Shown: positions 1,810 through 32,668 of the stretch, piece by piece
Position numbering within the stretch: position 1 is the first letter of the stretch
Layout: each line of letters opens with the position of its first letter
From: an uncultured Desulfobacteraceae bacterium
GTDB lineage: Bacteria; Desulfobacterota; Desulfobacteria; Desulfobacterales; Desulfatirhabdiaceae
Direction of reading: 5' to 3'
DNA length: 64,000 nt
NCBI GenBank assembly: GCA_903953895.1
Contig: CAJBLH010000133.1
Span: 1-64,000 of the forward strand
Notes under the pieces: model-generated
Databases searched by the model: none
Told to the model about the DNA's origin: nothing
The model's input: only the letters and a program-made list of their open reading frames with translations
Position numbers and translations under genes: made by a program

Positions 1810-1912
1810 ACGGCATTACTTATAATGATAGTTTTTTTTGACCAGCAGGTTCATTCATCATCACGATTTCGGACTGCTAACATTAAGCAAAAGGCATACC
1901 CGGAAGGATCCC

Positions 1913-2386
1913 ATGAAGAGTCAATACTCCATTATCCAAGATAAAGAACGATGTATCGGCTGTCTGAGCTGCGAGGTTTATTGCCTGCAGAACAAACAGC
2001 TATCGGAAGGCCCCCGGCTTTGTGAAATTGTCGTGTTGGGCAAACGAAAACAAAATGGTATTCCTCGCGAAGCCTACGTATACATGTCTTGTTTTCACTG
2101 CGAAAATCCGGCCTGTGTTGCAGCATGTCCGACCAGCGCCATGAAAAAGCGTGAGCCCGACGGGATCGTATATGTGGATTTCGATCGTTGCATCGGATGC
2201 AAGGCCTGCATGGTGGCCTGTCCTTGGGGAGCGGTACAGTGGAATCCCGAAGCTCAGAAAGTGGTCAAATGCGATTATTGCAAGGATCGTGTGGATCAGG
2301 GACTCAAGCCCGCCTGTGTCACGGTTTGCACGACCGGGTGCCTGAACTTCAAGGAACTGAGCGGCAGCGACTCGGATTCGGATTAA
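1913..2386 (+). CDS. Four-cluster 4Fe-4S ferredoxin subunit (HycB/DmsB type)
   Basis: 157 aa from ATG 1913, preceded by GGAAGG. Cys motifs for four [4Fe-4S] clusters run in order: CIGCLSCEVYC, CFHCENPACVAACP, CIGCKACMVACP, then CDYC with a closing CVTVCTTGC. This arrangement is typical of the electron-transfer subunits of molybdopterin oxidoreductases and of HycB/HydN proteins. Canonical nuo operons do not carry such a gene between nuoC and nuoE. It probably moves electrons between a molybdo-enzyme, perhaps the one ending at 248, and the NuoEF/HoxU-like proteins encoded just downstream. The partner is inferred from position only. Confidence 0.85.
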   Translation: MKSQYSIIQDKERCIGCLSCEVYCLQNKQLSEGPRLCEIVVLGKRKQNGIPREAYVYMSCFHCENPACVAACPTSAMKKREPDGIVYVDFDRCIGCKACMVACPWGAVQWNPEAQKVVKCDYCKDRVDQGLKPACVTVCTTGCLNFKELSGSDSDSD

Positions 2387-2471
2387 GTGATTTAAAACCT
2401 ATGATAGCCTTTCTGCACGAAAATGAAGGGCATCACCATCTTTGATTACCATCCAGCCTAAGGAGGCATGA

Positions 2472-2984
2472 ATGTCGGGGACAGCGTGTCAGTGCCAGGA
2501 GATCGAATGCGCGGAAGTCGAAATCGATTACACTCTTCTGGATAAGATCATTCGTGATGATTATGGCGGAAACAGGGAAGCCATGATCATGATGATGCAG
2601 GCTATCCAGCGGGTATATCGCTTTTTGCCGGAAGCGGCCGTGAAGTACTTGTCCCAGGTCATCGAGGTTCCGCTCACCAAGATTTATGAGGTGGCCACAT
2701 TTTACGCCTCTTTCAGTCTTGAACCCAAGGGCAAGTATATTCTCAGCGTCTGTACGGGCACAGCCTGCCATTTAAGAGGAAGCGGCGGCATGGTGGAACA
2801 CATCTCGAAACGGATGGGAATCGCCCCCGGCAAAACAACCGCGGATATGAAACTGACCCTGGAAACGGTCAACTGCGTCGGCGCCTGTGCCGTGGCCCCT
2901 GTCGTAGTTGTTGATGAGAAGTATTACCCCAAGGCAGATATCGCTACGCTGAACGATTTCATGGATCGTCTGGATGCGGAATAA
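2472..2984 (+). CDS. nuoE: NADH dehydrogenase 24-kDa-type subunit E
   Basis: 170 aa, thioredoxin-like [2Fe-2S] protein (cluster N1a). The four ligands fall in CTGTACHLRG (about residue 93) and CVGACAVAP (about residue 134). The start has AGGAGG at 2461-2466, five nt upstream. In complex I and in HydABC/Hnd-type enzymes this subunit partners the FMN/NAD-binding subunit, encoded next. Operon 2 has no nuoE. Confidence 0.93.
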   Translation: MSGTACQCQEIECAEVEIDYTLLDKIIRDDYGGNREAMIMMMQAIQRVYRFLPEAAVKYLSQVIEVPLTKIYEVATFYASFSLEPKGKYILSVCTGTACHLRGSGGMVEHISKRMGIAPGKTTADMKLTLETVNCVGACAVAPVVVVDEKYYPKADIATLNDFMDRLDAE

Positions 2985-2996
2985 GGGAATGATGAT

Positions 2997-4895
2997 ATGA
3001 TCGAAGCAACTCAAGTCGCAACTTCCCCTGAGGTTAATAAAATTACGTCTCCCGCCGGTCTGGATATCTTCCGGAAGGAACTTGACTCCAAACTCGACCC
3101 CAATGCACCGCTTTTGATCGTCTGCTGCGGCACCGGGTGTCAGGCAGCCGGCAGTTCCGAAGTCGTCGATAAATTCAGAGAGGTGCTTTCCGGAATCGGC
3201 TGGGGGGGGAAAGTCATACCCTTGGTCAAACCCACCGGGTGTCACGGATTCTGTTCACGGGGCCCCCTGGTGATCATCGAACCACAGGATCTGTTTTATC
3301 AGCGGGTTACGGTCGATGATGTCGAGGACATCGTCAACAAAACGATTTTGAACAATGAAGTCATCAGAAAGCTTCAATACAAGCCGGCCAATTCCAAGGA
3401 AGTCATTCCCAGAGCCAGCGATATTCCTTATTATGCCAAGCAGACCCGTCTGGTATTAAAGAATATCGGGAAAGTGGACCCCACCGAAATTAATGACTCC
3501 ATCGTCCGCGGCAGTTATTCGGCACTGGCCAAGGTCCTGACCCGCATGTCTCCGGATCAGGTCATCGATGAAGTCGCCAATTCCAAACTCCGTGGCCGTG
3601 GTGGGGCCGGGTTCCCCACCGGACTCAAATGGGAATCCTGCGCCAAGCAGGAAGGCACACGATATGTTATCTGCAACGCGGACGAGGGAGACCCCGGAGC
3701 CTTCATGGACCGATCGCTTCTTGAAGGCGACCCTCACAGCGTATTGGAGGGAATGGCCATCTGCGCCTATGCAGTCGGTTCCAATCGCGGGTATATGTAT
3801 GTGCGGGCGGAATATCCTCTGGCCGTTAAAACTCTCACGGCCGCCATCCGCCAGGCCGAGGCCCTCGGGCTTCTCGGAGATAATATCATGGGAACCGGTT
3901 TTGACTTCAAGGTCACCATTTCAACCGGCGCAGGCGCTTTCATCTGCGGTGAATCCTCCGCCTTGATGGCGTCTCTGGAAGGAAAAGTCGGCAGGCCCCG
4001 TCCCAAATATATCCGATCGGTTGAAAAAGGATTCCGGGACTGCCCGTCGAATCTCAACAATGTGGAAACCTACGCCAACATTCCCGACATCATCACCAAC
4101 GGTGGTGATTGGTACAAATCTTTTGGGACGGAGCGGTCTTCCGGAACCAAGGTTTTTGCTCTGACCGGAAATGTCTATAATATTGGTCTGGTTGAAGTCC
4201 CCATGGGGATTTCGCTGATGGAAATCGTTTACGGCATCGGCGGGGGGATACCCAACAAACGGTCCCTGAAAGGGGTTCAGACCGGTGGGCCGTCGGGTGG
4301 ATGCATTCCCATTCCGCACAAGATCCCCGACATCAATGTGGGGTACGGTAAACTGGCGGAAGCTGGATCTATCATGGGCTCCGGCGGTATGATCGTCATG
4401 GATGAAGATACCTGCATGATCGAGGTGGCCCGGTACTTTGTCAACTTTCTGGTCGAGGAATCCTGCGGTCAGTGTACGCCCTGCAGGGAAGGACTGATCC
4501 GGATGCGCGAAATCCTGAATCGGATCACCCAGGGCGACGGAAAGGAAGGCGATGTCGAACTCCTGGACGAGATTGGCAATTTCACCAATAATTTTTCTCT
4601 CTGCGGGCTCGGAACATCGGCGGCTAACCCGGTGCTGTCCACGATTCGGTTTTTCCGCGACGAATATGACGCCCACATCCGAGATAAAAAGTGCCCGGCA
4701 GGTGTCTGCAAGCCTCTGTTCCATTATGATATCGAAGCAGAAACATGTACCGGCTGCGGACTCTGCAAGACCAAATGTCCTGTCAAGGCGATCACCGGAG
4801 AGAAGAAAAAGACCCATGTCATTGACCAGTCTCTCTGCATTAAATGTATGGAATGCTATAAGAATTGTAAATTCAGAAGCGTCAAAATCATGTGA
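2997..4895 (+). CDS. nuoF: NuoF/HndC/HydB-type FMN- and NAD(P)-binding subunit
   Basis: 632 aa, about 200 residues longer than canonical NuoF. An N-terminal thioredoxin-like [2Fe-2S] domain comes first (CCGTGC near 43-48, TGCHGFC near 84-89). Then follows the NADH/FMN core with GRGGAGFPTGLKW near 198-210, ADEGDPGAFMD and the N3 ligands in SCGQCTPCREG near 489. A C-terminal bacterial ferredoxin domain carries CTGCGLCKTKCP and CIKCMECYKNC. This three-part layout is that of HndC and HydB, the flavoprotein subunits of NADP-reducing and electron-bifurcating hydrogenases. AAGGGA precedes the start. It forms a NAD(P)H-handling module with NuoE and the HoxU-like protein. Whether it bifurcates cannot be told from sequence. 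Confidence 0.93.
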   Translation: MIEATQVATSPEVNKITSPAGLDIFRKELDSKLDPNAPLLIVCCGTGCQAAGSSEVVDKFREVLSGIGWGGKVIPLVKPTGCHGFCSRGPLVIIEPQDLFYQRVTVDDVEDIVNKTILNNEVIRKLQYKPANSKEVIPRASDIPYYAKQTRLVLKNIGKVDPTEINDSIVRGSYSALAKVLTRMSPDQVIDEVANSKLRGRGGAGFPTGLKWESCAKQEGTRYVICNADEGDPGAFMDRSLLEGDPHSVLEGMAICAYAVGSNRGYMYVRAEYPLAVKTLTAAIRQAEALGLLGDNIMGTGFDFKVTISTGAGAFICGESSALMASLEGKVGRPRPKYIRSVEKGFRDCPSNLNNVETYANIPDIITNGGDWYKSFGTERSSGTKVFALTGNVYNIGLVEVPMGISLMEIVYGIGGGIPNKRSLKGVQTGGPSGGCIPIPHKIPDINVGYGKLAEAGSIMGSGGMIVMDEDTCMIEVARYFVNFLVEESCGQCTPCREGLIRMREILNRITQGDGKEGDVELLDEIGNFTNNFSLCGLGTSAANPVLSTIRFFRDEYDAHIRDKKCPAGVCKPLFHYDIEAETCTGCGLCKTKCPVKAITGEKKKTHVIDQSLCIKCMECYKNCKFRSVKIM

Positions 4896-4935
4896 TTAGG
4901 TTCAATCCGTTATCATCACATTAAAGGACACCCCG

Positions 4936-5754
4936 ATGAAAGTCCTCAACATTGTATTAAACGGTAAAGCAGTTACCGCAAAGATGGGTCAGACCATTTT
5001 GGAGCTGGCAAGGGAACATAATGTCTTTATCCCGACACTTTGCGACAGCCCTGCGCTGGAGGCCGCCGCCATGTGCCGGCTGTGTACCGTGCAGGTCATT
5101 GAAGGTAAATGGCCCAAATTCGTGACTGCCTGTAATTTCCCACTGCGACGGGATGCTGAGGTCGTCACTGATTCTCCGGAAGTGCGGCATGGCCGAAAAC
5201 TGATCATCGAACTGCTGATGGCCAGATGCCCGACATCACCGGAATTGCAGCGGCTGGCCGTGGATTACGGCTGTGATCTGGAGCGGTTTGCGCCGTTGAA
5301 CGACGATTGCGTTGTGTGCGGGCTGTGTACTCGCGCTTGCGAAGCGGTGACTGGCCGCACGTTGTCCCTGGCCGGCAGGGGCGTGGCCATTCATGTGGAC
5401 ACCGCGTTTCAGAAGGCATCAGAGTATTGTATCGGCTGCGGAGCGTGCGTTCAGATCTGTCCGGTGAATAAAATCGCAATGGAAGATGTAGACGGCGAAC
5501 GGCGGATCATTCTGCACGGGAAAATTGCATCCCGCGTCAAACTGCCGCAATGCACATCCTGCGGTAAGCATTTTGGTCCGGTGATCGACCTGCAGCAAGT
5601 CATGGAGCGCATGGGCGAACACAAGATTCCACCACCGAATGCATCGGTGTGTCCGGAGTGTTCGAGACGGAATCTGGCGATTAAACTGGGAAAACGGTAT
5701 TTTGAACAATACGGCGTTTTCGAAGATGAAGAAGGTCAGGCGAATGCTGGATAA
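4936..5754 (+). CDS. HoxU-like / N-terminal NuoG-like iron-sulfur subunit
   Basis: 272 aa. It has an N-terminal [2Fe-2S] ferredoxin fold (Cys at TLCD, MCRLC and TACN), a CVVCGLCTRAC motif and CIGCGACVQICP, and so resembles HoxU or NuoG trimmed of its molybdopterin-like domain. The tail carries two CxxC pairs (CTSC near 204 and CPEC near 239) that could bind zinc or iron. The catalytic or vestigial NuoG C-terminal domain is absent and may be supplied by a separate molybdoprotein. AAAGGA precedes the ATG. The 3' end overlaps the chosen nuoD start by 11 nt. Confidence 0.87.
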   Translation: MKVLNIVLNGKAVTAKMGQTILELAREHNVFIPTLCDSPALEAAAMCRLCTVQVIEGKWPKFVTACNFPLRRDAEVVTDSPEVRHGRKLIIELLMARCPTSPELQRLAVDYGCDLERFAPLNDDCVVCGLCTRACEAVTGRTLSLAGRGVAIHVDTAFQKASEYCIGCGACVQICPVNKIAMEDVDGERRIILHGKIASRVKLPQCTSCGKHFGPVIDLQQVMERMGEHKIPPPNASVCPECSRRNLAIKLGKRYFEQYGVFEDEEGQANAG

Positions 5755-6910
5755 ACCCTCTTTTAGTCTAAACGGCGATTACTATTCGTCCCGATTTTCG
5801 CAACTCGGTAAAGGCGAAGGCGATACCCTGGTTTTGAATCTTGGGCCGCAGCATCCTTCCACACACGGCGTTCTTCGTGTGATCGTGGAGCTTGACGGCG
5901 AATATGTTCTCAGGGCTGAACCGGTTCTGGGATACATTCACCGGATGCACGAGAAAATGGCTGAGGTTAAAACCTACATTCAGTATTTGCCAAACATGGG
6001 ACGTGTCGATTATCTGCATGCTCTGGCCTGGAATTGGGCCTATGTGGGGGCTGTGGAAAAGCTGATGGGGCTCGAGGTGCCGGCGCGCGCCGAATACATC
6101 CGGGTCATCACCTGCGAGCTGAACCGCATATGTTCTCATCTCTTGTGGTGGGGCGCCTACGTGCTGGATCTGGGTGGGTTTACACCAATTCTGTATGCAT
6201 TCGACGACCGCGAAATTCTCATGGACATCCTCCAGATACCGACCGGGTCGCGACTGACCTATTGCTATTACCGGTTCGGCGGGGTGTCTGCGGATTTGAC
6301 GGAAACGTTTCTGACCCAGACCCGTAACTTCATCGAGCGCTTCAAGACCCGGATTCCGATGTATCATGATCTGGTTACAGGAAACATGATCCTTAGAGGC
6401 CGGTGTGAAGATATCGGTGCGCTCCCGGTTGAAATGGCCAGACGCTACGGGGCGACCGGCCCGGTGTTGCGAGGGTCGGGTGTGGCATACGATGTCCGGC
6501 GTTTTGAACCTTATTCTGTCTATGACAAATTCGACTTTGACATTCCGGTCGGAAAGAACGGAGATGCCATGGACCGGTATGATGTCCGGATGGCTGAAAT
6601 GGAGCAGAGTGTCCGGATTATCGAACAGGCTCTGAACAGCATGCCAGATGGGCCCTTTGTCAACCCCGATGTGCCGGACCGCATCCTGCCGCCGGCCGGC
6701 GAGACATATTTCGCCGTGGAAGGTGCACGCGGGAAGATAGGTGTCTATCTGGTCAGTGATGGAACGGCCAAGCCGTATCGGCTGAAATTGCGGGCTCCGG
6801 GATATTCAAACCTGCATGTTTTTGCGGAGCTTGCTCAGGGGACGATTCTGGCGGATGCGGTTTCCATATTGGGTAGTCTTGACCTCGTGATACCGGAGAT
6901 CGACAGATGA
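5744..6910 (+). CDS. nuoD: NADH-quinone oxidoreductase subunit D, operon 1
   Basis: 49-kDa quinone-site subunit, 388 aa from ATG 5744; an alternative ATG lies at 5726. The Q-site loop [12 protein letters not shown] keeps both conserved histidines, and the quinone-ligand tyrosine sits in RVDYLHAL. The end, IPEIDR, matches the usual GEVDR terminus. The family segment around GYIHR is changed to [10 protein letters not shown]. nuoH starts in the ATGA at the stop codon. Confidence 0.94.
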
Positions 6911-7893
6911 CACAGCTTCTCCAGCTTTTTGCAAATCCACTGGTATACCTTCTGGTGGCGCTGATCGCAATCCTTACCTTTATCGCCCTGAACGGTCTGA
7001 TACTGGTTTATGTGGAGCGGAAGGTCGCAGGCTTCATTCAAAGAAGACCCGGACCTTTTGAAGTCGGCCCTCACGGCCTGCTTCAGCCGCTGGCCGACGC
7101 TCTGAAACTCGTTGGCAAACAGTTGGTCGTGCCAAGGGATGCAGACCGCATACTATTCTGGGCTGCGCCGCTTTTATCATTCGCACCGGTGGCCGTCTGT
7201 CTGCTGCCGATACCCTTCGGCCCGCATCTGGTGGGGCTAAACGTAAACCTCGGGGTGCTGCTGGTTTTGGCCTTTTCCGGGTTGAACGTACTGGCCCTGT
7301 GTTTGGCAGGCTGGGGCTCCAACAACAAATATGCGCTGTTGGGAGCTGCCCGCGCGGTGGCCCAGTCTGTTGCCTATGAAATTCCGCTGCTTCTCTCGGT
7401 TCTCTGTGTGGCATTCACCAGCGGGTCTCTGAATTTTGCGGAGATTACGGCATCCCAGACCCATGGACTGCTTTCATGGAATGTGTTTACTCAGCCCGTG
7501 GCCTTTTTGATATTCTTTGTCTCTGCACTGGCTGAAACCAACCGGGCGCCCTTTGACCTCCCCGAGGCGGAAAGCGAGCTGACCGCTGGTTTTCATACGG
7601 AATATTCCGGCATGGGGTTCGGTTTGTTTTTCCTTGCGGAATACTCTTATATGATCGTGGTCTGCGCGGTGGCTTCTGTCCTGTTTCTGGGTGGGTGGAG
7701 CGGGCCGTTTCTGTCCGGCCACTGGTGGATGCTCGGTAAGATATATGCCTTGATCCTGGCCATGATGTGGTTTCGCTGGACTTATCCCCGTGTGCGGTTC
7801 GATCAGTTGCTGAACCTCTGCTGGAAATGGCTCATACCGCTTTCCCTGATCAACCTGATGGCGACTGCTTTGATCATAAACCTTGTGAGGTAG
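6907..7893 (+). CDS. nuoH: NADH-quinone oxidoreductase subunit H, operon 1
   Basis: 328 aa membrane subunit that lines the quinone chamber and links the peripheral and membrane arms; about eight transmembrane helices. Signature motifs: [26 protein letters not shown] and [16 protein letters not shown] followed by GFHTEYSG. The start overlaps the nuoD stop (ATGA). Confidence 0.95.
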
Positions 7894-7894
7894 G

Positions 7895-8431
7895 ATGACA
7901 ACGATTCAAAAAACTCTGAAAGGGCTGTGGAGCCTGATTGTCGGCCTGAAGGTCACGGGAAAGGAGTTCTGCAAACCCTGGATTACCGTTCATTATCCAA
8001 GGCAGGAAGTCACGAACCTGGAATCCTACAGGGGGCATATTGATCTTGTACCGAGACCGGATGAACCCAAAAAGCCGCTTTGCATTGTCTGCAAACGCTG
8101 CGAGGAAGTATGTCCTTCTGGCTGCATTCGAGTCGAAGGGCATGTGCCTGGGGAGCAAACCGGTGAAGCCCGCCAGTTGCTGCTGATATCCAATGTGCCG
8201 CTGCCCAATTCCGCGGCTCGGGACCCCATCTGCGCTGCTGACAAGACCCTGCGGGTGCTTGATGGTTTTACCCTCAACTACAATTATTGCAGCCTCTGTG
8301 GACTTTGCGTCCAGTGTTGCCCGGTATCCTCCCTGACATTTTCCAGCGATGTCTATCTTGCCGGCGGCTCCCGCAGGGATTTTGAATATGACCTGCTCCG
8401 GCGGCTCAAAAACAGAAAGATTAAAGTATAA
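7895..8431 (+). CDS. nuoI: NADH-quinone oxidoreductase subunit I-like ferredoxin, operon 1
   Basis: 178 aa, one nt after nuoH. Two [4Fe-4S] motifs, CIVCKRCEEVCP and CSLCGLCVQCCP, match the N6a/N6b clusters of NuoI. It is shorter than the operon 2 copy (204 aa) and is more divergent between the two motifs. Position between nuoH and nuoJ supports the call. Confidence 0.9.
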   Translation: MTTIQKTLKGLWSLIVGLKVTGKEFCKPWITVHYPRQEVTNLESYRGHIDLVPRPDEPKKPLCIVCKRCEEVCPSGCIRVEGHVPGEQTGEARQLLLISNVPLPNSAARDPICAADKTLRVLDGFTLNYNYCSLCGLCVQCCPVSSLTFSSDVYLAGGSRRDFEYDLLRRLKNRKIKV

Positions 8432-8447
8432 AGTTTTAAGTGTTAAG
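8427..8447. repeat. Intergenic repeat copy 1 (nuoI-nuoJ gap)
   Basis: The 21-nt segment beginning TATAAAGTTTTAAG overlaps the nuoI stop and closely matches the segment at 12892-12912 that overlaps the nuoL-like stop. Each is followed by a TTAACCC-type stretch before the next gene, so the gap could fold. It looks like a short dispersed intergenic repeat. Confidence 0.45.
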
Positions 8448-8508
8448 CGGTATGGGCAATTCACCGCGATTATTTACCACTTAACCCCTTTTTAAAGGAC
8501 AGCAGAAT

Positions 8509-9024
8509 ATGGATCTTCATTCTATGATTCATCCGGCTTATGGGTTATATCTGGCCCTGATTGTCGGCGGCGGCGTCGTGGCGGTGTTTGCCCGCAGCTT
8601 GGTTAGGGCCCTGTCCGGGCTGATCGTCACGCTTTTTGGTGTGGCAGGGATGTATCTGCTCATGGCGGCTCCGTTTCTTGCCTTCATGCAGATACTGATT
8701 TACGTGGGTGCGGTAACGGTTCTGATTTTTTTTGCAATCATGCTGACACGGTCTTCCGACGGCGAGTCCGGCACCGAAGGCGGGCGGATCGGTCGGGGGT
8801 TTTTGGCTATCTGGGCCGCAGTATTTTCGACCCTGGTGCTTGCGGCTGTCGTGGTTCGTCACATGCCCAATGCCATCCCGCTGAAACCTGAAGTCAGTAT
8901 GGGGCGTTTGGGTGAGTTTCTTACCGGCCCATTTGCCCTTTCGTTTGAACTGATTTCAGCCGTCCTGTTTGTAGCTATGGCCGGGGCCGTACTCTTGGGC
9001 TTTGAGAGGAGAATAGCCAAATGA
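8509..9024 (+). CDS. nuoJ: NADH-quinone oxidoreductase subunit J, operon 1
   Basis: 171 aa hydrophobic subunit with five predicted helices. The conserved block FMQILIYVGAVTVLIFFAIML, which forms the pi-bulge helix important for coupling, is present. AAAGGA lies upstream of the ATG. It ends in an ATGA overlap with nuoK. Confidence 0.94.
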   Translation: MDLHSMIHPAYGLYLALIVGGGVVAVFARSLVRALSGLIVTLFGVAGMYLLMAAPFLAFMQILIYVGAVTVLIFFAIMLTRSSDGESGTEGGRIGRGFLAIWAAVFSTLVLAAVVVRHMPNAIPLKPEVSMGRLGEFLTGPFALSFELISAVLFVAMAGAVLLGFERRIAK

Positions 9025-9329
9025 ATTATTTGGTAATGTATCATCTGGCGGCGCTGATTCTTTTTGGATTGGGACTGTACGGGATTACCTGTCGCAAGAG
9101 TCTTGTCGGGATGCTGATATCGGTAGAACTGATGCTGAACGGTGCGGGTTTGGCGCTGGTGGCCAGCAGTCGGCTGACGCCAGCCATAGATGAACTCGGA
9201 CAGATAGGTACGCTGTTGGTAATGGGGCTGGCCGCTGCTGAAGCGACACTGGTACTTGCCATAATCCTGATCGTATCCCGGCGTTTCGGAACCACCGAAA
9301 TTGCCGAAATCGCAACGTTAAAGGGCTAA
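9021..9329 (+). CDS. nuoK: NADH-quinone oxidoreductase subunit K, operon 1
   Basis: 102 aa, three transmembrane helices. Both functional glutamates are present: one in SVELMLNG (helix 2) and one in AAAEATLVLAI (helix 3). The start overlaps the nuoJ stop. Confidence 0.95.
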   Translation: MNYLVMYHLAALILFGLGLYGITCRKSLVGMLISVELMLNGAGLALVASSRLTPAIDELGQIGTLLVMGLAAAEATLVLAIILIVSRRFGTTEIAEIATLKG

Positions 9330-9332
9330 TGG

Positions 9333-10805
9333 ATGATGACTGAAAGCGCAACACTTCTTTTTCCGATTCTCATTACCGGCCTGTCTCCGCTATTTATCTG
9401 GCTGCTGCGTAAAAACATCAATCAGCGCGAAGCGGCTTCTTTTGTCGCCGGTATTCTGACATTTGCATCTGTGATGAGTTTTGTGCCCCAGGTTTTGAAA
9501 GGCAATATCCTGGTATACAAGCTTTTCGAGATATTGCCCGGTATCGAAGTAAAATTCTGTGCAGACGGCCTGGGGATGATATTTGCCATTGTGGCGTCAT
9601 TTCTCTGGATACTTGCCACCTCATATAATATCGGCTATATGCGATCCCTTAAGGAACATGCACAGACGCGATATTATTTCTGTTTTGCGGTGGCTATTTT
9701 CGGAGCACAGGGCGTTGCGCTGAGCGCCAACATCTTTACGCTGTATCTTTTCTACGAAGTCATCACTGTCTTTACCTATCCTCTGGTCGCCCACCACCAG
9801 GATGAGGAAGGCTTCAGCGGCGCCCGCAAATACCTGGTCTACCTCATGGGCACATCCAAGCTTTTCCTGCTGCCGGCCATGGTACTCACCTATGTCCTGT
9901 GCGGCACCCTTGATTTTAAGCTTGGCGATATGACAACCGGCATTTTCCCTGCGGACGCCAATCCCGTGCTGGTTCAGATCACCTATTTTCTCTATATCGC
10001 GGGCCTGGCCAAGGCCGCCATTATGCCCTTCCATAACTGGCTGCCGTCTGCAATGGTGGCCCCCACCCCGGTCTCGGCTCTCTTGCATGCCGTGGCGGTT
10101 GTAAAAGCCGGAGTTTTTTCAGTCTGTCGTATACTCCTGTCCGGTTTCGGGGTCAATCTGATGACTGATCTGCATTTAGGTTATGTCACCGCCTGTTTTG
10201 CAGCCTTCACCATTGTTACGGCATCGGTGATCGCTCTGACCAAGGACGATTTAAAGGCCAGGCTTGCTTATTCTACGGTCAGCCAGCTTTCCTATGTGGT
10301 TCTGGGTGTTGCCATGCTGACACCGTCCTCCATTACCGGCGGACTGGCCCATATCGCCCATCACGCCTTCAGTAAAATCACCCTCTTTTTTGCTGCAGGT
10401 GCGATTTATGTGGCTACCCATAACAAGAAAATCAGCATGATGTCCGGTCTGGGCCGGAAAATGCCCTGGACTTTCGGGGCCTTTGCTCTGGCCAGTCTGT
10501 CCATGATCGGTGTGCCGCCGGTGTGCGGGTTTGTCAGCAAGTGGTACATGATCAACGGTGCTGTCAGCGCCAATTACACGATTTTTATGACCGCGCTTCT
10601 GGCCAGTACAATTCTGAATGCTTCGTATTTCACTCCGATTATCTTCAAGGCGTTTTTCGAAGCTCCAACCACCGATCACTCTCATTTCTCCGAAGCGCCT
10701 CTGACCATGGTGGTTCCGCTTTTTTTCACTGCGCTGGTATCGGTGTTTTTAGGGTTGTACCCGCAGGTTTTTATTCAGTTCATACATACGATCAAGGGTT
10801 TTTAA
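9333..10805 (+). CDS. MrpD/NuoN-like antiporter subunit (extra), operon 1
   Basis: 490 aa, about 14 transmembrane helices, proton_antipo_M family. The TM5 glutamate is in LFYEVITVFTYPLV, the TM7 lysine in GLAKAAIMPFHNWLP, and the TM8 lysine in AVAVVKAGVF. It resembles the MrpD subunits of cation/proton antiporters. Canonical complex I has three such subunits (L, M, N); this is a fourth, placed between nuoK and a small membrane protein. Operon 2 has the equivalent gene at 41051-42538. It is predicted to add a proton or sodium channel to the membrane arm. Confidence 0.9.
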   Translation: MMTESATLLFPILITGLSPLFIWLLRKNINQREAASFVAGILTFASVMSFVPQVLKGNILVYKLFEILPGIEVKFCADGLGMIFAIVASFLWILATSYNIGYMRSLKEHAQTRYYFCFAVAIFGAQGVALSANIFTLYLFYEVITVFTYPLVAHHQDEEGFSGARKYLVYLMGTSKLFLLPAMVLTYVLCGTLDFKLGDMTTGIFPADANPVLVQITYFLYIAGLAKAAIMPFHNWLPSAMVAPTPVSALLHAVAVVKAGVFSVCRILLSGFGVNLMTDLHLGYVTACFAAFTIVTASVIALTKDDLKARLAYSTVSQLSYVVLGVAMLTPSSITGGLAHIAHHAFSKITLFFAAGAIYVATHNKKISMMSGLGRKMPWTFGAFALASLSMIGVPPVCGFVSKWYMINGAVSANYTIFMTALLASTILNASYFTPIIFKAFFEAPTTDHSHFSEAPLTMVVPLFFTALVSVFLGLYPQVFIQFIHTIKGF

Positions 10806-10856
10806 AGGGCTTTGTCAACGGCGTTATGCGAACCACAGCAGCGGGAGTCATCAACC

Positions 10857-11108
10857 ATGTCTTTTTTTAAACAGTTTACAGATGCATCTTTCCTGAAAAA
10901 GGCGATGTATACGGTATTGTCCGTGATGGTAGTCTTAAACGTCATGATTCTGCCGCCTCACCCGCATTTCGGCGCCGAGAAGATTCCGGGGTTCTGGGCC
11001 GTGTTTGGCGTGGTGGTTGCCGTGCTACTGGCCAGGCTTGCCAAGGGGGCAGCCCACACATTTCTGGGAAAAGACCTTGATTTTTATGATAAAAAAAATG
11101 AGAAATAA
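10857..11108 (+). CDS. Small two-TM protein of the complex I operon
   Basis: 83 aa from ATG 10857; upstream in-frame codons run through the tail of the gap after the antiporter gene. Two hydrophobic helices are predicted (about residues 16-33 and 44-61) with a charged C-terminus. I do not recognise a family. A similar-sized protein with the same hydropathy lies at the identical operon position in operon 2 (42535-42792); both have a [HD]-x-[HD]-type patch before a WxxFxG/WAVFGV-like second helix. The conserved position between the MrpD-like and L-like subunits suggests an accessory membrane subunit. Confidence 0.75.
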   Translation: MSFFKQFTDASFLKKAMYTVLSVMVVLNVMILPPHPHFGAEKIPGFWAVFGVVVAVLLARLAKGAAHTFLGKDLDFYDKKNEK

Positions 11109-11135
11109 TCCAACTGCATCCCTGAAGGAGGCAAA

Positions 11136-12896
11136 GTGACCGCGTTTATTCATCCCGCCATCCTGTTTGCCGGTTGCGCGCTGATCGTTCTGTTTCTGCC
11201 GGTGAGAATCGGCAGATGGTTTCCGCCCATCGCCGCATCCTTGGCTGTGTATTGTGTTGTCACCATGCCCGAGGGCTCATTTGCGACCCTGAATTATTTG
11301 GGGATGACGCTGAATTTGGGCCGCGTGGATGCCCTGTCTCTGGTATTCGCCCATGTATTTGCCATTCAGGCCGTTATCGGATTCATTTTCGCTTTTCATA
11401 TCACAGACCGTGCCCAACATGTGGCGGCTCTGATGTATATTACCGGTGCATTCGGATCGGTCTTTGCGGCCGATTATCCCACCCTGTTTATTTTCTGGGA
11501 ACTCATGAGCGTTTCATCGACGTTTCTGGTGTGGCTCAGGCGGGCGCCGGCTTCAACCAAGGCAGGTTTTCGCTATTTCCTGTTTCACACCCTCGGCGGA
11601 CTCATGTTACTGGCCGGTCTGCTGCTTCGCTTCAAGGCCACCGGTTCCTGGGCTTTTGATGCCGTATCGCCTGCAAGTGCGCAGTTCTATGATTATCTGA
11701 TCATGATTGGATTCTGTGTGAATGCAGCCGTCATTCCCCTGCACGCCTGGCTGCCGGATGCCTATCCGGAAGCAACCGTCACCGGCGCTGTTTTTATGAG
11801 CGCGTTTACCACAAAAACCGCCGTTTATGTCTTGCTTCGCGGTTTCTCTGGTTTTGAGATCCTTGGTGTCATGGGAACGTTGATGACGCTTTACGGGGTT
11901 TTCTACGCAACCATTGAAAATGATACCCGTCGCATTCTGGCCTATCACATTGTTTCCCAGGTCGGATACATGGTGGCCGGGATAGGTATCGGCACCGCCA
12001 TGACCGTGAACGGAGCATGCGCCCACGCCTATGCCCACATCTTATATAAGGGCCTGCTTTTCATGAGTGCCGGAACACTTCTCTATGCCGCCGGCACATC
12101 CAAGCTCACGGAACTCGGCGGATTGTTTCAACGTCTGCCTCTGGTGTGTTTGTGGTACATGATCGCAGCAGTCAGCATCTCCGGGGTGCCGCTTTTCTCC
12201 GGCTTTATCAGCAAGACCATCACCATTGCCGGTGCTGCTGAAGCCCATCATCCGTGGCTTGCCATCGGCATGGAAATCGCGGCGGTGGGCACATTTCTGT
12301 CGGTCGGCATCAAGCTGCCGTACTTCGCCTTTTTCTCCAAGCAGGATCCAGGGATGAAGCTGGCCCCGATTCCCTTGAATATGCACATCGCTATGGGAAT
12401 TTCCGGGTTTCTTTGTTTCTTCATCGGTATATACCCCCAATTTTTGTATAATCTTCTTCCGAATGTTGTCGAATATGTTCCCTACACGCCATGGCATGTG
12501 TTACAGTCTTCGATACTGTTGGGGTTTACGGGACTCGGATTTTATATCATGCACAAAAAACTCAAACCCGAAGCCAAGCTCAATCTGGACTTCGACTATA
12601 TTTATAGGCTGGTTGGTCGCATGGTCGTTGCCGTTGCACGCCGACCGATTGAAGTCATCGACATTTGGTGGAGTGAATTCTACCGGATCGGTGGCCTCAA
12701 GGGCTTGCTCAAGACGGCTGCTGGCTCCGCCTGGTTCGACAAGGCTGCCATTGATGGCGTGGTCGACGGTTCCGCCTACACAGTACAGAAAATCGGACGG
12801 ATTGCGGCGATGACTCAAACTGGCCGATTACAGGATTATTTGTCTACAGCACTTGTCGTCGGATTGACTGTCTTTGCGTTGATCTGGTTTTTATAA
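11136..12896 (+). CDS. NuoL-like antiporter subunit, operon 1
   Basis: 586 aa, GTG start at 11136 with AAGGAGG about 7 nt upstream. Antiporter core: TM5 glutamate in FWELMSVSSTFLVW and the block IPLHAWLPDAYPEATVTG. The lysine usually seen in TM7 just before PLHxWLP is an asparagine here (VNAAVIPLHAW); a lysine remains in TTKTAVY. After the core is an extended C-terminal part (about 430-586) ending in a helix preceded by TQTGRLQDY, as in the tails of NuoL proteins with the lateral helix. It takes the NuoL position before nuoM. Confidence 0.85.
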   Translation: MTAFIHPAILFAGCALIVLFLPVRIGRWFPPIAASLAVYCVVTMPEGSFATLNYLGMTLNLGRVDALSLVFAHVFAIQAVIGFIFAFHITDRAQHVAALMYITGAFGSVFAADYPTLFIFWELMSVSSTFLVWLRRAPASTKAGFRYFLFHTLGGLMLLAGLLLRFKATGSWAFDAVSPASAQFYDYLIMIGFCVNAAVIPLHAWLPDAYPEATVTGAVFMSAFTTKTAVYVLLRGFSGFEILGVMGTLMTLYGVFYATIENDTRRILAYHIVSQVGYMVAGIGIGTAMTVNGACAHAYAHILYKGLLFMSAGTLLYAAGTSKLTELGGLFQRLPLVCLWYMIAAVSISGVPLFSGFISKTITIAGAAEAHHPWLAIGMEIAAVGTFLSVGIKLPYFAFFSKQDPGMKLAPIPLNMHIAMGISGFLCFFIGIYPQFLYNLLPNVVEYVPYTPWHVLQSSILLGFTGLGFYIMHKKLKPEAKLNLDFDYIYRLVGRMVVAVARRPIEVIDIWWSEFYRIGGLKGLLKTAAGSAWFDKAAIDGVVDGSAYTVQKIGRIAAMTQTGRLQDYLSTALVVGLTVFALIWFL

Positions 12897-12912
12897 AGTT
12901 TTAAGGGTTCAG
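12892..12912. repeat. Intergenic repeat copy 2 (nuoL-nuoM gap)
   Basis: This segment, TATAAAGTTTTAAGGGTTCAG, resembles the one at 8427-8447 and likewise starts at a stop codon. The rest of the gap holds a 9-bp inverted repeat (12925-12933 with 12970-12978). Confidence 0.45.
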
Positions 12913-12994
12913 TGAAGTATAAAAGAATAGAATGGTTTCTTAACCCTTGGTTCTTTACCTTAACCCGTTATTCTATTCGTCGAACGGAGAACGA

Positions 12995-14539
12995 ATGAGT
13001 CAGACCACCATGCCGATTTTATCCATTTTGACGTATTTCCCACTAGCCGCATGTTTCGTTTTGCCTTTTATCAAAAACGAAAAAACGGTTCGGGTGTTTA
13101 CCTTGCTTATTGGTATTGCAGAGGTTTTTCTGGCGCTTCCTCTGTTTCGATTCAATATGACGACTCCCGGATATCAGTTTGTTGAAAAAATCGCCTGGGT
13201 ACCCCAGTGGGGACTGACCTATTACATGGGGATGGACGGGATCAGCCTGTTGATGGTGCTTTTGACCATTCTGCTGCTGCCCTTGTGCGTTTTGTGTTCC
13301 TGGACTTACATCTCCAAGCGGGTTAAAGAATTTCATTTCAGCCTTTTGCTGATGACATCGGCCTGTATCGGCGTGTTTCTGGCCTTGGATCTTGTCCTTT
13401 TTTATGTTTTCTGGGAAGCCATGCTGGTGCCGATGTTCTTGCTTATCGCCGTATGGGGTGGGCCGGAACGGCGGTATGCATCTGTCAAGTTCTTTCTGTA
13501 TACGCTGGCCGGTAGCACGCTTCTTCTTGTCGCCATCATTGCCTTTTATAAGGCTGGTGGCACCTTTTCCATCCCGGAACTGACCGAGCAGACATTTTCT
13601 TTCCGTTTCCAGTTCTGGGTTTTTCTGGCGATGGCCCTGGCCTTTGCTATCAAAGTGCCGATGTTTCCTTTCCATACCTGGCTTCCCGCTGCGCACGTCG
13701 AGGCGCCCACTGCAGGCAGTGTGTTGCTGGCTTCGATTCTGCTGAAAATGGGTGCTTACGGTTTTCTGCGTTTTTGTCTGCCCATGACTCCGGATGCCAG
13801 CGTCTATTTTGCACCCATGATGATCGCCATTTCCGTGGCCTCCATTTTATACGGCGGTTTTGTGGCCCTGGGCCAGAAAGACATGAAAAAGCTGATCGCT
13901 TATTCTTCCGTTGCTCATATGGGGTTTGTTACGCTGGGGATATTTATATTTTCACTGAGAGGCTTTCAGGGCGCGCTCATGGTTATGCTCAATCACGGCA
14001 TCACCACGGGTGGGCTCTTCATGATGGTTGGGGCCATCTACGAACGCAGTCACAGTCGGGAAATCGCCAGCAATATGGGACTTGGCAAGTATCTGCCGGC
14101 CTATATGTTTTTCTTCGGACTTTTTGCACTGTCTTCCCTTGGGTTTCCGGGAACCAACAGTTTTGTGGGAGAGCTTTTGGTTCTGGTTGGCATTTTTAAA
14201 GCAAACCCATGGGTTGGGGCCGCCATCATCCCGGGTGTTATGCTGGGAGCCGCCTACATGCTAAGACTCGGCCAGAAACTGGCCTGGGGAGAACCGTCCC
14301 ATGCCAAGGCGTGGCCAGATCTGAACTTCAGGGAATGGAGCTATTTGGTTCCTTTGGCGATTCTGGTTATCTATATCGGACTTGCGCCTGGGCTTGCCCT
14401 GCGCGCAATCGATCCATCGCTGAACCGAATACTGGATCGCATTTCGCCCAAACCCAAAACAGCCATCGTTGAAACCGCTGCTTTGCCGACACCACAGAAA
14501 GGCATTTTTGCCGGTGGTCTGTTTTCTTTATCACGCTGA
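12995..14539 (+). CDS. nuoM: NADH-quinone oxidoreductase subunit M, operon 1
   Basis: 514 aa from ATG 12995, chosen for the GGAG at 12986-12989; the longer frame to 12947 has no ribosome site. About 14 helices. The TM5 glutamate is in FYVFWEAMLVPMF, the TM7 lysine in [14 protein letters not shown], and the family block [15 protein letters not shown] is intact, followed by the lysine in LLKMGAYGF. It is a proton-pumping subunit. Confidence 0.95.
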   Translation: MSQTTMPILSILTYFPLAACFVLPFIKNEKTVRVFTLLIGIAEVFLALPLFRFNMTTPGYQFVEKIAWVPQWGLTYYMGMDGISLLMVLLTILLLPLCVLCSWTYISKRVKEFHFSLLLMTSACIGVFLALDLVLFYVFWEAMLVPMFLLIAVWGGPERRYASVKFFLYTLAGSTLLLVAIIAFYKAGGTFSIPELTEQTFSFRFQFWVFLAMALAFAIKVPMFPFHTWLPAAHVEAPTAGSVLLASILLKMGAYGFLRFCLPMTPDASVYFAPMMIAISVASILYGGFVALGQKDMKKLIAYSSVAHMGFVTLGIFIFSLRGFQGALMVMLNHGITTGGLFMMVGAIYERSHSREIASNMGLGKYLPAYMFFFGLFALSSLGFPGTNSFVGELLVLVGIFKANPWVGAAIIPGVMLGAAYMLRLGQKLAWGEPSHAKAWPDLNFREWSYLVPLAILVIYIGLAPGLALRAIDPSLNRILDRISPKPKTAIVETAALPTPQKGIFAGGLFSLSR

Positions 14540-14553
14540 GGAAGGAGAACCTT

Positions 14554-15987
14554 GTGAAGGTTGATTTTACGCTGCTTTTACCGGAACTGGTTCAGCTCCT
14601 GATCATTCTGGGGCTATTTGTTCAGACCCTGAAAAAACCGGGAACTGAGAGTAAGGGGATCTTTGGCCTCGGTTGGCTGCCGTGGGCTGCCGCCGTTGGC
14701 ATTGCCGTTTCTGCATTCAGTATGAAGCGCTCCGGCTTACTGTTCTGGGATGCCTATCAGGTGGATGGATTATCCCAGTTTTTCAAGACGGCTGTGTCCC
14801 TTGGCTTTGCCATCGCATCTTTAAACGCTCTATCCGCACCGACAGTCAGAGAAGATCAGCGGGCCGATTATTTGATGTTTTTTGCCTTAAGCTCATTGGG
14901 TCTTATGTTGATGGCCGGCTCCGTTGAGCTGATAACCATTTATATTTCGCTAGAGATTGCTTCATACAGTCTCTATGCCATTATCCCCATCCGTGGCAAT
15001 GATCCGCGCGCCGCAGAAGCCGGCATCAAATATATCCTTTTCGGTGCTGCCGCAACGGCGATAGCCTTGTTCGGTCTGTCTTACATCCTTGCATCCCAGC
15101 ACACCACCTATCTACATATTCTGGCTACCAAGTCCTGGACCTGGGCTGATTCGCCACTTGCAGTCACCGGCATCACCTTGTTCATGGTCGGATTCTTTTT
15201 CAAGCTGGCACTGTTTCCCTTTCATTTCTGGTGCCCGGATGTATATGACGGCACCAGTAATGAAACCGCCGCCTTTGCTGCTACACTCCCGAAGCTCGGG
15301 GCTGTGGTCATCCTGATCCGCCTGGTGGCACTCCTGAAACCGGAAATAGAGATCCTCACGCTTATGGCTGTTCTGTCAGCGGCGTCCATGACATTCGGAA
15401 ATCTGGCGGCTCTGATTCAGACTGATGTCAAGCGGATACTTGGCTATTCCAGTGTGGCCCATGCCGGGTATGTCCTGGTCGGTCTGGTCGCTGCCAGCGC
15501 TGCGGGTCTTTCGGCCGCCGGTTTTTACAGCCTCATTTATCTTTTGATGAATTTAACCTGTTTCTGGGTGATATGCAGCCTGTCTACAGATGGGAAGAAT
15601 CTGAAACTGGACGATTTGAATGGTCTTTATAAACGTGAGCCCTATCTGGCCTTTATTCTGGCAGTCGGCGCTTTTGCTCTGGTCGGTCTTCCGCCCACGG
15701 CCGGTTTTATGGGCAAACTCTTTCTGCTTACCGCTGCCTGGAATCGCGGCTATAACTGGCTGATCATCATAGCAGCGCTTAACACCGCCATTTCCATTTA
15801 TTATTATTTGAACATCGTCCGCCATGCATACACCCAGGAAGCTGATGACGCGCTCGAGATTGTGCCCGCCCGGTGCTGCAGCGCCCTCTGGGGCGGAGTA
15901 CTGGCGGCATCACTGCTTGTTTTAGGAATCATGCCCCAGCCGGTTTTCTGCTGGATGGAGGAAGCTGCCAGGCAAATGATGCCCTGA
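14554..15987 (+). CDS. nuoN: NADH-quinone oxidoreductase subunit N, operon 1
   Basis: 477 aa, GTG start at 14554 preceded by AAGGAG. The TM5 glutamate is in ISLEIASYSLYA and the TM7 lysine in FFFKLALFPFHFWCPDVYDG. The lysine of LPKLGAVV and the DVKRILGYSSVAHAG block are typical of NuoN. It ends the conserved chassis of operon 1. Confidence 0.94.
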   Translation: MKVDFTLLLPELVQLLIILGLFVQTLKKPGTESKGIFGLGWLPWAAAVGIAVSAFSMKRSGLLFWDAYQVDGLSQFFKTAVSLGFAIASLNALSAPTVREDQRADYLMFFALSSLGLMLMAGSVELITIYISLEIASYSLYAIIPIRGNDPRAAEAGIKYILFGAAATAIALFGLSYILASQHTTYLHILATKSWTWADSPLAVTGITLFMVGFFFKLALFPFHFWCPDVYDGTSNETAAFAATLPKLGAVVILIRLVALLKPEIEILTLMAVLSAASMTFGNLAALIQTDVKRILGYSSVAHAGYVLVGLVAASAAGLSAAGFYSLIYLLMNLTCFWVICSLSTDGKNLKLDDLNGLYKREPYLAFILAVGAFALVGLPPTAGFMGKLFLLTAAWNRGYNWLIIIAALNTAISIYYYLNIVRHAYTQEADDALEIVPARCCSALWGGVLAASLLVLGIMPQPVFCWMEEAARQMMP

Positions 15988-16286: not shown

Positions 16287-17048
16287 ATGAATGAGAAATA
16301 TGATTTAAAGAACCGGGATACGATTCTGAGACTGATTGCCGTATCGGTGATCGTTCTTGAGCTGTTTATTTTCGCATGTACGCTTGTTTTCCAGCTCGAT
16401 GAAAAGAATCATATCGAAACGCCGATCACCGAAGAGATGGCCAGGCTCTATATCGACCATCCGGAAAAGCTCAAGCCTAATGAGCGGATCGCCATCAGCA
16501 CACGAAACAGTATGTACAACAACCAGCAGCTTTATCTGCTGATCAGTGACGAAGCGGTTGAAATCCCTTTTCCTTGGAAAGGGTGGATTCTGATATCCAT
16601 TGGCGCCCCCATTGGTCTGTTTTTTCTGGTGACATTGATCACTAAAGCTTATTTTCAGGCCATAGAAACCGATTTCAAGGAAGATGACACAAATGCTAAC
16701 CAGTGGGTCACGGCGCTAAACCATCTAAGTAAGATCAATGTCATATGGTTCATGCTCCTTCTGGTCTGCGCCCTGTTTCTAATCTGGTACATTCCGGAAG
16801 TCGTCAAATTCGCCGGCAGCGTCACCACCACCTGGCTGACCAAATTCTGGTGGATCCCCACCACGTTGTTTGGTATCGTTTTTCTGACGATGATCTGGTG
16901 GATTTATTTGCAGTATCGCCTTAAAGTCAATGTCATGCATATGGAGATGGAAAAATTCAAGCTTCTGCAGTTTGAGGAACAAAAGGCATTGCTGTTGCCA
17001 GAGGACACCTCCGCACAGATCAAAATGATCGAACAGGAGCAATCCTGA
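16287..17048 (+). CDS. Four-TM membrane protein following nuo operon 1
   Basis: 253 aa with no family I recognise. Predicted helices at about 14-36, 92-115, 150-170 and 185-210. Between helices 1 and 2 is a conserved soluble loop with the segment MARLYIDHPEKLKPNER. The C-terminal 40 residues are charged and coiled-coil-like. A clear paralogue follows nuo operon 2 (50489-51256), sharing EEMAR-x-YIDHPEKL, FPWKGWIL-x-SIGAP and WYIPE. Association with both complex I operons suggests a role linked to that complex, such as assembly or anchoring; this is inference. It has its own promoter candidate. Confidence 0.85.
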   Translation: MNEKYDLKNRDTILRLIAVSVIVLELFIFACTLVFQLDEKNHIETPITEEMARLYIDHPEKLKPNERIAISTRNSMYNNQQLYLLISDEAVEIPFPWKGWILISIGAPIGLFFLVTLITKAYFQAIETDFKEDDTNANQWVTALNHLSKINVIWFMLLLVCALFLIWYIPEVVKFAGSVTTTWLTKFWWIPTTLFGIVFLTMIWWIYLQYRLKVNVMHMEMEKFKLLQFEEQKALLLPEDTSAQIKMIEQEQS

Positions 17049-19233: not shown

Positions 19234-20664
19234 ATGAAACTTTCTGAAACACAACAAATGCTGCTGCCCCGGCTTCCGGGGGTTGACCGGATGCTGGAGA
19301 CGGCAAAAGCCGATCCGTTTTTCAGGGATATCCCTCTATCCGTGGTCACACGATCTGCCCGGACGGTGATCGAATCGCTTCGCGCTGACATTATAGACAA
19401 CCGCGCCGGGATCACCGAAGCAGAGTTGTCGGATGCATCTGTCATTGAAAAAATCAGGGAATCGGCGGCAGACGCCATGTTCCTGAATCTTTTCAGAGTC
19501 ATCAATGCAACGGGAGTTGTGGTACACACCAATCTGGGCCGGTCTTTGCTGGCTGATGAAGCCGTCGCCAATCTGCAGAATGTTGCCGGAAGGTACTCGA
19601 ACCTGGAATTTGATATCGGTACTGGAAAACGTGGCTCCCGCTACCGGGCTGTCGAGGACATTCTCTGTGAGATTACCGGCGCACAGGCGGCTATGGTGGT
19701 CAACAACAATGCTGCTGCGGTGCTGCTCTGTCTGGATACGCTGGCCAGGGGAAAAGAAGTCGTGGTCTCCCGTGGGGAACTGGTTGAAATCGGAGGTTCT
19801 TTTCGAATTCCCGATGTCATGGCCAGAACCGGCGCCATCTTGAAGGAAGTTGGAACGACCAACCGTACCCATATGAAAGACTACGCCCAGGCTATCCATG
19901 AAGCTACAGGCCTGCTGCTGAAAGTACACACCAGCAATTACCGGGTAGAGGGCTTTACGGCGTCGGTGCCGCTCGGTGAGCTGGTAGCCCTGGGAAAATC
20001 GCAAGGAGTTACGGTGATGGAGGATCTGGGAAGCGGCACATTGATGGATTTTTCACGATACGGTATGCAGTACGAACCTACGGTACAGGAATCTGTCGCA
20101 TCCGGCGCCGACGTCATTACGTTCAGCGGAGACAAGCTGCTGGGCGGCCCCCAGGCGGGGATCATCCTCGGAACGAAGGCCATCCTGGATGCAGTCAAGC
20201 AGAATCCCCTGACTCGGGCGCTTCGTATCGACAAACTGACGCTGGCAGCCCTGGAAAGCACGCTTCGCCTGTACCGTGATCCGGAAAAAGCCAAAGATGC
20301 CATTCCGACCCTGCGCATGTTGACGTTGCCATTGACCGTGATCCGGCGCCGGGCGGACCGGCTGTACGAAATGCTTGCCGGTATCGGGGACCTGCGGTTG
20401 AATTTGACCCAGCATGATGCGTCGTCGCGGGCAGGTGGCGGATCACTGCCGCTTCTGGATATCCCCACGGTCTGTGTGGGGATGCAGGTTGTCGGGATGT
20501 CAACACGTGCCGTGGAATCGTTTCTGCGGCATCATACACTGCCTGTTATCGGCAGAATCGAAGCCGACGTCTTTTTGATGGATGTCCGGACGGTTCAGGA
20601 GGATGAATTGGCGTTGATTCAAACGGCTGTTGCAACACTGTTATTAAAGGGGATCGGGCCATGA
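19234..20664 (+). CDS. selA: L-seryl-tRNA(Sec) selenium transferase
   Basis: 476 aa PLP enzyme that converts Ser-tRNA(Sec) to Sec-tRNA(Sec) with selenophosphate. The PLP lysine lies in TFSGDKLLGGPQAG. Conserved segments include NATGVVVHTNLGRSLL and MVVNNNAAAVLL. Its presence matches the two in-frame TGA codons in the fdhA genes of this window. selB, selC and selD are not in the window. The next gene starts in the ATGA at its stop. Confidence 0.96.
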   Translation: MKLSETQQMLLPRLPGVDRMLETAKADPFFRDIPLSVVTRSARTVIESLRADIIDNRAGITEAELSDASVIEKIRESAADAMFLNLFRVINATGVVVHTNLGRSLLADEAVANLQNVAGRYSNLEFDIGTGKRGSRYRAVEDILCEITGAQAAMVVNNNAAAVLLCLDTLARGKEVVVSRGELVEIGGSFRIPDVMARTGAILKEVGTTNRTHMKDYAQAIHEATGLLLKVHTSNYRVEGFTASVPLGELVALGKSQGVTVMEDLGSGTLMDFSRYGMQYEPTVQESVASGADVITFSGDKLLGGPQAGIILGTKAILDAVKQNPLTRALRIDKLTLAALESTLRLYRDPEKAKDAIPTLRMLTLPLTVIRRRADRLYEMLAGIGDLRLNLTQHDASSRAGGGSLPLLDIPTVCVGMQVVGMSTRAVESFLRHHTLPVIGRIEADVFLMDVRTVQEDELALIQTAVATLLLKGIGP

Positions 20665-30482: not shown

Positions 30483-30491
30483 AATTTCTCC

Positions 30492-32653: not shown

Positions 32654-32668
32654 GCTTGTGAGGCGGGG

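Follow-up and report, generated by a model that had tools for sequence, protein, structure and literature searches.

Two complex I operons with a D1–s–D2 cassette proposed to replace NuoL in an uncultured Desulfobacteraceae bacterium

The window analyzed here, a stretch of 64,000 nucleotides from an uncultured Desulfobacteraceae bacterium (assembly GCA_903953895.1, contig CAJBLH010000133.1, positions 1 to 64,000), contains two complex I operons, operon 1 running from A (387) to N (15987) and operon 2 from A (35883) to N (47641). The order K–D1–s–D2–M–N is common to both; D1, D2, NuoM and NuoN are the four antiporter-like proteins of each operon, and s is a small open reading frame (ORF). Gene content, protein families, clades, residue patterns, lateral-helix spacing and co-occurrence were observed directly. 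On these grounds we give about an even chance to the reading that each operon encodes a membrane arm of the "green complex I" type, in which D1–s–D2 would replace NuoL, D1 being the pump, D2 a brace or relay, and s the element joining both. The genes concerned are as follows (TM, transmembrane helix; aa, amino acids).

9021-9329, + strand: nuoK of operon 1 (PF00420)
9333-10805, + strand: D1 of operon 1, 490 aa, antiporter-like, without lateral helix; TM5 Glu142, TM7 Lys227, TM8 His252 and Lys258, TM12 Lys403
10857-11108, + strand: s of operon 1, 83 aa, predicted to have two membrane helices; a longer ORF, 10812-11108, begins with TTG
11136-12896, + strand: D2 of operon 1, 586 aa, antiporter-like, with a NuoL-type lateral helix and last TM helix; Asn196 at the TM7 lysine site (codon at 11721)
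12947-14539, + strand: NuoM of operon 1, 530 aa; TM7 Lys, TM12 Glu
14554-15987, + strand: NuoN of operon 1, 477 aa; TM7 Lys, TM12 Lys
40741-41043, + strand: nuoK of operon 2 (PF00420)
41051-42538, + strand: D1 of operon 2, 495 aa
42535-42792, + strand: s of operon 2, 85 aa; shares 4 bases with D1 and 8 bases with D2
42785-44542, + strand: D2 of operon 2, 585 aa; Asn195 at the TM7 lysine site (codon at 43367)
44562-46151, + strand: NuoM of operon 2, taking 44562 as its start; the longest ORF (555 aa) opens at 44484, inside D2
46166-47641, + strand: NuoN of operon 2, 491 aa as the longest ORF

From K to N, successive genes were separated by 3, 51, 27, 50, and 14 bases in operon 1 and by 7, -4, -8, 19, and 14 bases in operon 2 (with the assumed NuoM start). 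The small ORF between the first two antiporter-like proteins of both operons was absent from the list given in the initial annotation of this DNA.

All eight antiporter-like proteins of the window matched PF00361 (E 4e-43 or better). In operons 1 and 2, respectively, D1 scored 803 and 713 bits against NF006236, "putative monovalent cation/H+ antiporter subunit D" (cut-off 663), and D2 scored 713 and 761 bits against NF009310, "Na(+)/H(+) antiporter subunit D" (cut-off 564; both NCBIfam). NuoM (572 and 657 bits) exceeded the cut-off of TIGR01972 (263.8), and NuoN (339 and 463 bits) that of TIGR01770 (332.6). The NuoL family TIGR01974 (cut-off 407.5) was reached neither by D1 (206 and 197 bits) nor by D2 (127 and 145 bits). 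Thus, the operons do not carry the canonical set of NuoL, NuoM, and NuoN alone: each encodes four PF00361 proteins, none with a NuoL-level score. The initial annotation had described four antiporter-like genes per operon, with an additional gene between K and an L-like gene; both statements were confirmed in both operons. The assignment of all eight proteins with hidden Markov models, which it had proposed as a check, returned NuoM, NuoN, and subunit-D families and no NuoL. "L-like" therefore holds for D2 as a resemblance, not as an identification with NuoL, and "MrpD-like" for D1 is a family name only.

In maximum-likelihood trees, D1 and D2 each formed a group that included Mrp-type cousins (support 100), and NuoL, NuoM, and NuoN were separate clades (support 100), with D1 and D2 both outside the NuoL clade. 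Support is given by the SH-like approximate likelihood ratio test (SH-aLRT) from short searches, with MrpA, NuoL, and D2 trimmed to 520 residues; one MrpA row in the larger tree had an end branch of 8.29 and was probably in a wrong frame. A tree of 36 rows omitted two MrpA and three Hyf rows. The approximately unbiased (AU) test on these 36 rows (LG+G4) rejected neither a NuoL+D1 (p 0.145) nor a NuoL+D2 grouping (p 0.238). The nearest named relatives of D2 of operon 1 came from Desulfobacteraceae, Desulfobacterales, and deltaproteobacterial metagenome-assembled genomes. The earlier description of the operons as having L plus an extra subunit is not supported: D1 and D2 are separate, well-supported groups and jointly replace NuoL, in agreement with what has been published on green complex I.

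The distribution of the cassette was analyzed across 296 sampled genomes from the phylum (thresholds of E <= 1e-100 for D2 and E <= 1e-150 for D1). D2 was found in 133 genomes and D1 in 133; both were present in 130 of the 136 having either. Seventy-one D2 places were studied: besides the 2 of the window and 7 in named loci, these were 62 in 60 fetched loci, hand-chosen from the listed D2 places for spread over families. D1 was upstream of D2 on the same strand in 71/71. The small ORF s was recognised between them in 70/71, the exception being L111, where none was found; this count is partly circular because the s profile was made from 60 blast-found copies and then run against those same loci. 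Pfam and NCBIfam gave no match for s at E 0.001. Hydropathy indicated two segments in 64 of the 70 copies, three in 5, and one in 1, and the predicted structure had two long helices and one short one, with a predicted local distance difference test score (pLDDT) of 63.

By gene pattern, 37 D2 places were of complex I type, 29 were Mrp-like (two or more D1-type genes), and 5 were left unassigned. The order K–D1–D2–M–N was found in 33 of the 37 complex-I-type loci; in three others (L088, L103, L113) the cassette followed N, and in L021 K was annotated although our script left it unlabelled. The D1b–s–D2 cassette was also present in Mrp-type clusters. The cassette moves as a unit, because D1, s, and D2 stay together in complex I and Mrp clusters alike, including the loci where they follow N. 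Pfam searches of upstream genes covered 3 of the 29 Mrp-pattern loci: L104 (six genes, five Mrp families), L107 (two), and L061 (one). In L104, the upstream genes encoded MrpE, MrpF, MnhG, MbhD/E, and MnhB, and since these are Mrp families, the cluster is an Mrp antiporter, at least there. One Mrp-pattern cluster carried tandem s–D2 pairs (D1 D1 s D2 s D2; L098, 2374-9774), and two Mrp-pattern cassettes lay on opposite strands within 20 kb in L108. On genome contig C49 (L018, 6332-11313, - strand), an antiporter-like protein of 635 aa adjoined a 1013-aa flavin/4Fe-4S protein, HdrA-like by eye.

The residues of the putative ion channels differed between the two proteins. The residue set described for a pump comprises TM5 Glu, TM7 Lys, TM8 Lys/His, and TM12 Lys/Glu, the TM7 lysine being named a key conserved residue (PMC10212512). 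The TM7 column (Lys229 of E. coli NuoL) was compared in a joint alignment of D2, D1/D1b, D1a, M, N, and L, with MrpA outside the comparison. It held Asn in 71/71 D2 (37/37 complex-I, 29/29 Mrp-type, and 5/5 others) and Lys in 70/70 D1/D1b, 28/28 D1a, 39/39 M, 40/40 N, and 2/2 canonical L, as well as in 30/30 further NuoL, the best-scoring ones of the NuoL search. In the window, D2 sequences at this site include NAAVIPLHAW, compared with K....P[FV]H.W in D1, M, and N, so that the TM7 alignment is beyond doubt. The other three positions (TM5 Glu, TM8 Lys, TM12 Lys) were kept in 71/71 D2, so that D2 has the pump set except for TM7. His151 (numbering of D2 of operon 1) was found only in D2, in 71/71, the other subunits having Thr, Leu, Gly, Ile, Ala, Asn, or Ser; Arg265 was present in 70/71 D2 and was mostly Lys in the other subunits. 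D1 and NuoL share a one-residue His insertion in TM8, absent from D2, M, N, and D1a, and D1 also keeps the TM8 Lys; this combination of His and Lys has been described for MrpA (PMC7419157). Judged by these residues, D1 is predicted to be a complete channel like that of NuoL or MrpA, and D2 is not. Each operon thus encodes four antiporter folds, and the TM7 lysine is kept by three of them (N, M, D1). With this lysine lost in 71/71 D2, pumps cannot be counted by counting subunits, and the higher ion stoichiometry that the initial annotation had derived from the fourth subunit is not supported by subunit number, though it may still hold. No earlier notice of the loss of the TM7 lysine in D2, or of s, was found in the literature searched, one limited collection; either may have been published elsewhere.

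The C-terminal part of complex-I D2 resembled that of NuoL. The NuoL-type lateral-helix motif "DG..NG.A" was present in complex-I D2, and D1 was without a lateral helix. From where TM15 ends to where the last TM helix starts, the spacing was 75 or 76 residues in 30/30 NuoL, 74 in the NuoL encoded on another contig of this genome (C217), and 73 in one alignment or 70 in another for E. coli NuoL. In complex-I D2 it was 85 in 30 of 37 sequences, 86 in 4, and 84, 88, and 111 in one each, making the D2 lateral-helix region about 10 residues longer than that of NuoL. A 26-residue insert is described in MrpD2 where a second NuoM is present, with an insert of similar length in the NuoL of 2M complexes (PMC9040806). 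Ten additional residues seem insufficient to reach across another subunit of such a size. Such inserts are also reported in NuoL without an extra NuoM (PMC9040806), and in one locus (L092, 9004-10833) a complex-I D2 had a helix region 26 residues longer, with a second VDGxVNG motif, and no second NuoM in the locus; both facts speak against a simple rule. The genome of this locus (G057) had only two other PF00361 matches, on another contig.

These spacings bear on the order of subunits in the arm. D2 may be outermost, its lateral helix crossing D1, M, and N, an arrangement that we consider somewhat less probable than an even chance; the alternative places D1 outermost, with D2 in the position of NuoL. 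The longer helix region of D2 in L092, where no second NuoM was found, favors the former, and the usual D2 spacing of 85, only about 10 over the 75 of NuoL rather than 26, tells against it, as does gene order: E. coli genes run K–L–M–N, NuoL being the outer end subunit, and the gene next to K here is D1. The loci with the cassette after N make gene order no strict guide to subunit order. An acidic residue after the TM12 lysine was found in 30/30 NuoL and in neither D1 nor D2, so this mark of the end subunit does not discriminate. Either arrangement is compatible with either reading of D2.

In the mechanism that we favor, D1 would take over the ion-channel work of NuoL with its TM5 Glu, TM7 Lys, TM8 His and Lys, and TM12 Lys and no lateral helix, and D2 would contribute the lateral helix and the last TM helix that brace the arm. 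D2 is regarded as a structural or relay element instead of an independent fourth pump because its TM7 lysine is replaced by Asn; that it is not an independent pump we infer from this one fixed substitution. The two-helix protein s would join D1 to D2, and the complex would move about as many protons per two electrons as an ordinary complex I despite its four antiporter folds. This mechanism was drawn from sequence alone: a structural model of D2 (from 7 sequences) had a mean pLDDT of 50, with residues 239-586 under 50, and was left unused. A broader form of the idea, which we hold only tentatively, is that in green complex I and in its Mrp cousins alike the lateral-helix subunit is a retired pump, the channel and brace jobs of NuoL having been split between D1 and D2 and an unrecognised two-helix subunit holding both together.

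In favor of a D2 that does not pump, NuoL K229A is cited as severely lowering the activity of complex I (PMC4938563). Several facts weigh against it. In an Mrp setting, growth and sodium were hardly affected by NuoL K229A and MrpA K196A (PMC4938563); loss of the lysine therefore need not stop transport. All 71 D2 retain TM5 Glu, TM8 Lys, and TM12 Lys, and His151 could be a stand-in for the TM7 lysine. According to the domino model, all protons exit via the end subunit (PMC10212512), and counting lysines may then be the wrong measure. A true four-pump complex I, in which D2 would also translocate via Asn196/His151 and about 5 H+ (or Na+) would be moved per two electrons, is accordingly a serious minority possibility. 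Its case is strengthened by the tolerance of K229A and K196A in the Mrp assays and by the four residues (TM5 Glu, TM8 Lys, TM12 Lys, and the D2-only His151) that are each present in 71/71, because of which D2 must be regarded as constrained and not as decaying; two MrpD-like subunits are also counted as ion-pumping in a paper on relatives in Manganitrophaceae (PMC9040806). It has to contend with the TM7 lysine being present in every other antiporter-like subunit examined and its loss being fixed in 71/71 D2, including the 29 of Mrp type.

That D1–s–D2 is a separate Mrp-type antiporter, merely co-transcribed with complex I, we consider very improbable. The cassette does stand beside MrpE, MrpF, MnhG, MnhB, and MbhD/E genes in L104, and complex-I-type and Mrp-type D1 and D2 interleave in the trees. 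However, no MrpE, F, G or B-type Pfam family was identified among the scanned window ORFs around the operons, and PF00420 is represented there by the nuoK of each operon. Complex-I-type D2 also has the NuoL lateral-helix motif with a spacing of 84-88 in 36/37, whereas the Mrp-type C-termini measured 52-103 and were poorly aligned. A further objection comes from genomes without NuoL. A complex-I-type cassette was present in 28 sampled genomes, 11 of which did not appear in the NuoL list (E <= 1e-110); these were hand-picked from the D2, locus, and NuoL listings, and G228 was added. A laxer search found NuoL above the cut-off in 0/12 of these genomes, with positive controls such as E. coli above it in the same search; the best NuoL scores were about 140 to 210 bits, mostly at D1, D2, M or other antiporter-like places. 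Were D1–s–D2 separate, complex I in these genomes would therefore be without an end subunit, and the suggestion that one of the proteins lies outside the complex was not borne out. Further PF00361 matches numbered 2 in G057 and 3 in G228. The supply of NuoL from elsewhere was set aside on these 12 other genomes. The genome of the window itself does carry, on contig C217, a separate nuo cluster that includes an ordinary L, M, and N, so absence cannot argue here; it had one NuoL match at E <= 1e-110, presumably the NuoL of this cluster.

The remaining genes of the two operons and the gene that follows operon 2 are listed below.

387-9329, + strand: other genes of operon 1, namely A, B, C, a 4Fe-4S protein (1838), NuoE (2472), NuoF (2997), a short NuoG/HoxU-like protein (4936), D, H, I, J, and K
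35883-41043, + strand: other genes of operon 2, namely A, B, C, D, H, I, J, and K
47663-50344, + strand: FdhA-type formate dehydrogenase, encoded immediately behind NuoN of operon 2; codon 350 is an in-frame TGA (motif DHCARLUHSS)

In operon 1, a 4Fe-4S dicluster protein (1838-2386) and the short NuoG/HoxU-like protein (4936-5754) take the place of a full NuoG. NuoE, NuoF, and NuoG were not found among the annotated ORFs of operon 2, and the FdhA-type gene after its NuoN suggests a formate-fed complex I. The in-frame TGA of this gene likely encodes selenocysteine. The same layout, with FdhA after NuoN and no NuoE/F/G found, recurred in L058 and L105. A SelA gene was present in the window at 19234-20664. 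A second FdhA-type ORF pair (34310-35350 by Pfam and 32669-34261 by blast) was located in the region 28389-35350 (- strand), adjoining FmdE-like and molybdopterin oxidoreductase genes. The protein encoded at 16287-17048, after NuoN of operon 1, was without a Pfam match; its blast relatives followed NuoN in L022, L023, L026, and L059 and were found farther away in L058, L060, and after operon 2.

Whether each antiporter-like subunit of complex I pumps, or only the end subunit, is an open dispute (PMC10212512, PMC9271201). Nature offers a test case in a complex I where one of four such subunits is without the TM7 lysine and where the brace and the NuoL-type channel sit on separate chains. The H+/e- ratio of this complex and the effects of deleting D1 or D2 would separate the pumping models. 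Such a complex may have a fourth subunit of this kind without a fourth proton pump, which questions the equation of an extra antiporter-like gene with extra energy conservation that is used when reading the energetics of uncultured microbes. If the lateral-helix subunit is a retired pump, published counts of four or five ion-pumping subunits in these complexes would be too high by one.

Among known systems, the window operons were closest to the green complex I of rhizobia, in which two MrpD-like subunits replace NuoL (PMC9040806, PMC7415380), as they do here beside M and N. The order J–K–D1–s–D2–M–N, including an unnamed s, was also found on plasmids of Rhizobium lentis and Sinorhizobium meliloti. 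Rhizobial D2 was 47-48% identical to D2 of operon 1 and 63-64% to that of operon 2, with the same TM7 Asn and a lateral-helix spacing within one residue; identities with the window proteins were 55-60% for D1, 52-53% for M, and lower, 31-44%, for N. The window operons run from A to N, whereas the rhizobial ones run from J to N before A to G, with H and I apart, a difference that concerns the operon and not the membrane arm. Operon 1 also differs in its short NuoG/HoxU-like and 4Fe-4S proteins, and operon 2 in the lack of a detected NuoE/F/G and in the FdhA-type gene that follows. Green complex I is described as having a NuoG with additional 4Fe-4S clusters (PMC4967309); the only NuoG-like protein found in the window operons is the short one of operon 1.

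The 2M complex I, with a second NuoM and a NuoL lateral-helix insert of about 26 residues (PMC9040806, PMC7117926), likewise has four antiporter-like subunits; in contrast, each window operon has one NuoM and no NuoL, and the D2 spacing was 85-86 compared with 75-76 in 30/30 NuoL. Complex_I_3 of Candidatus Manganitrophaceae, compared here by its description, shares the two MrpD-like subunits, which are said to be closest to those of rhizobial green complex I, but has five subunits, two NuoM, and a 26-residue MrpD2 insert (PMC9040806). The Mrp (CPA3) cation/proton antiporter shares the D1b–s–D2 cassette in Mrp-type clusters; around the window operons, no MrpB/E/F/G-type genes were found among the scanned ORFs, and redox subunits were present instead. 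The layout is thus already known from rhizobia, and its occurrence twice in one desulfobacterial genome is new.

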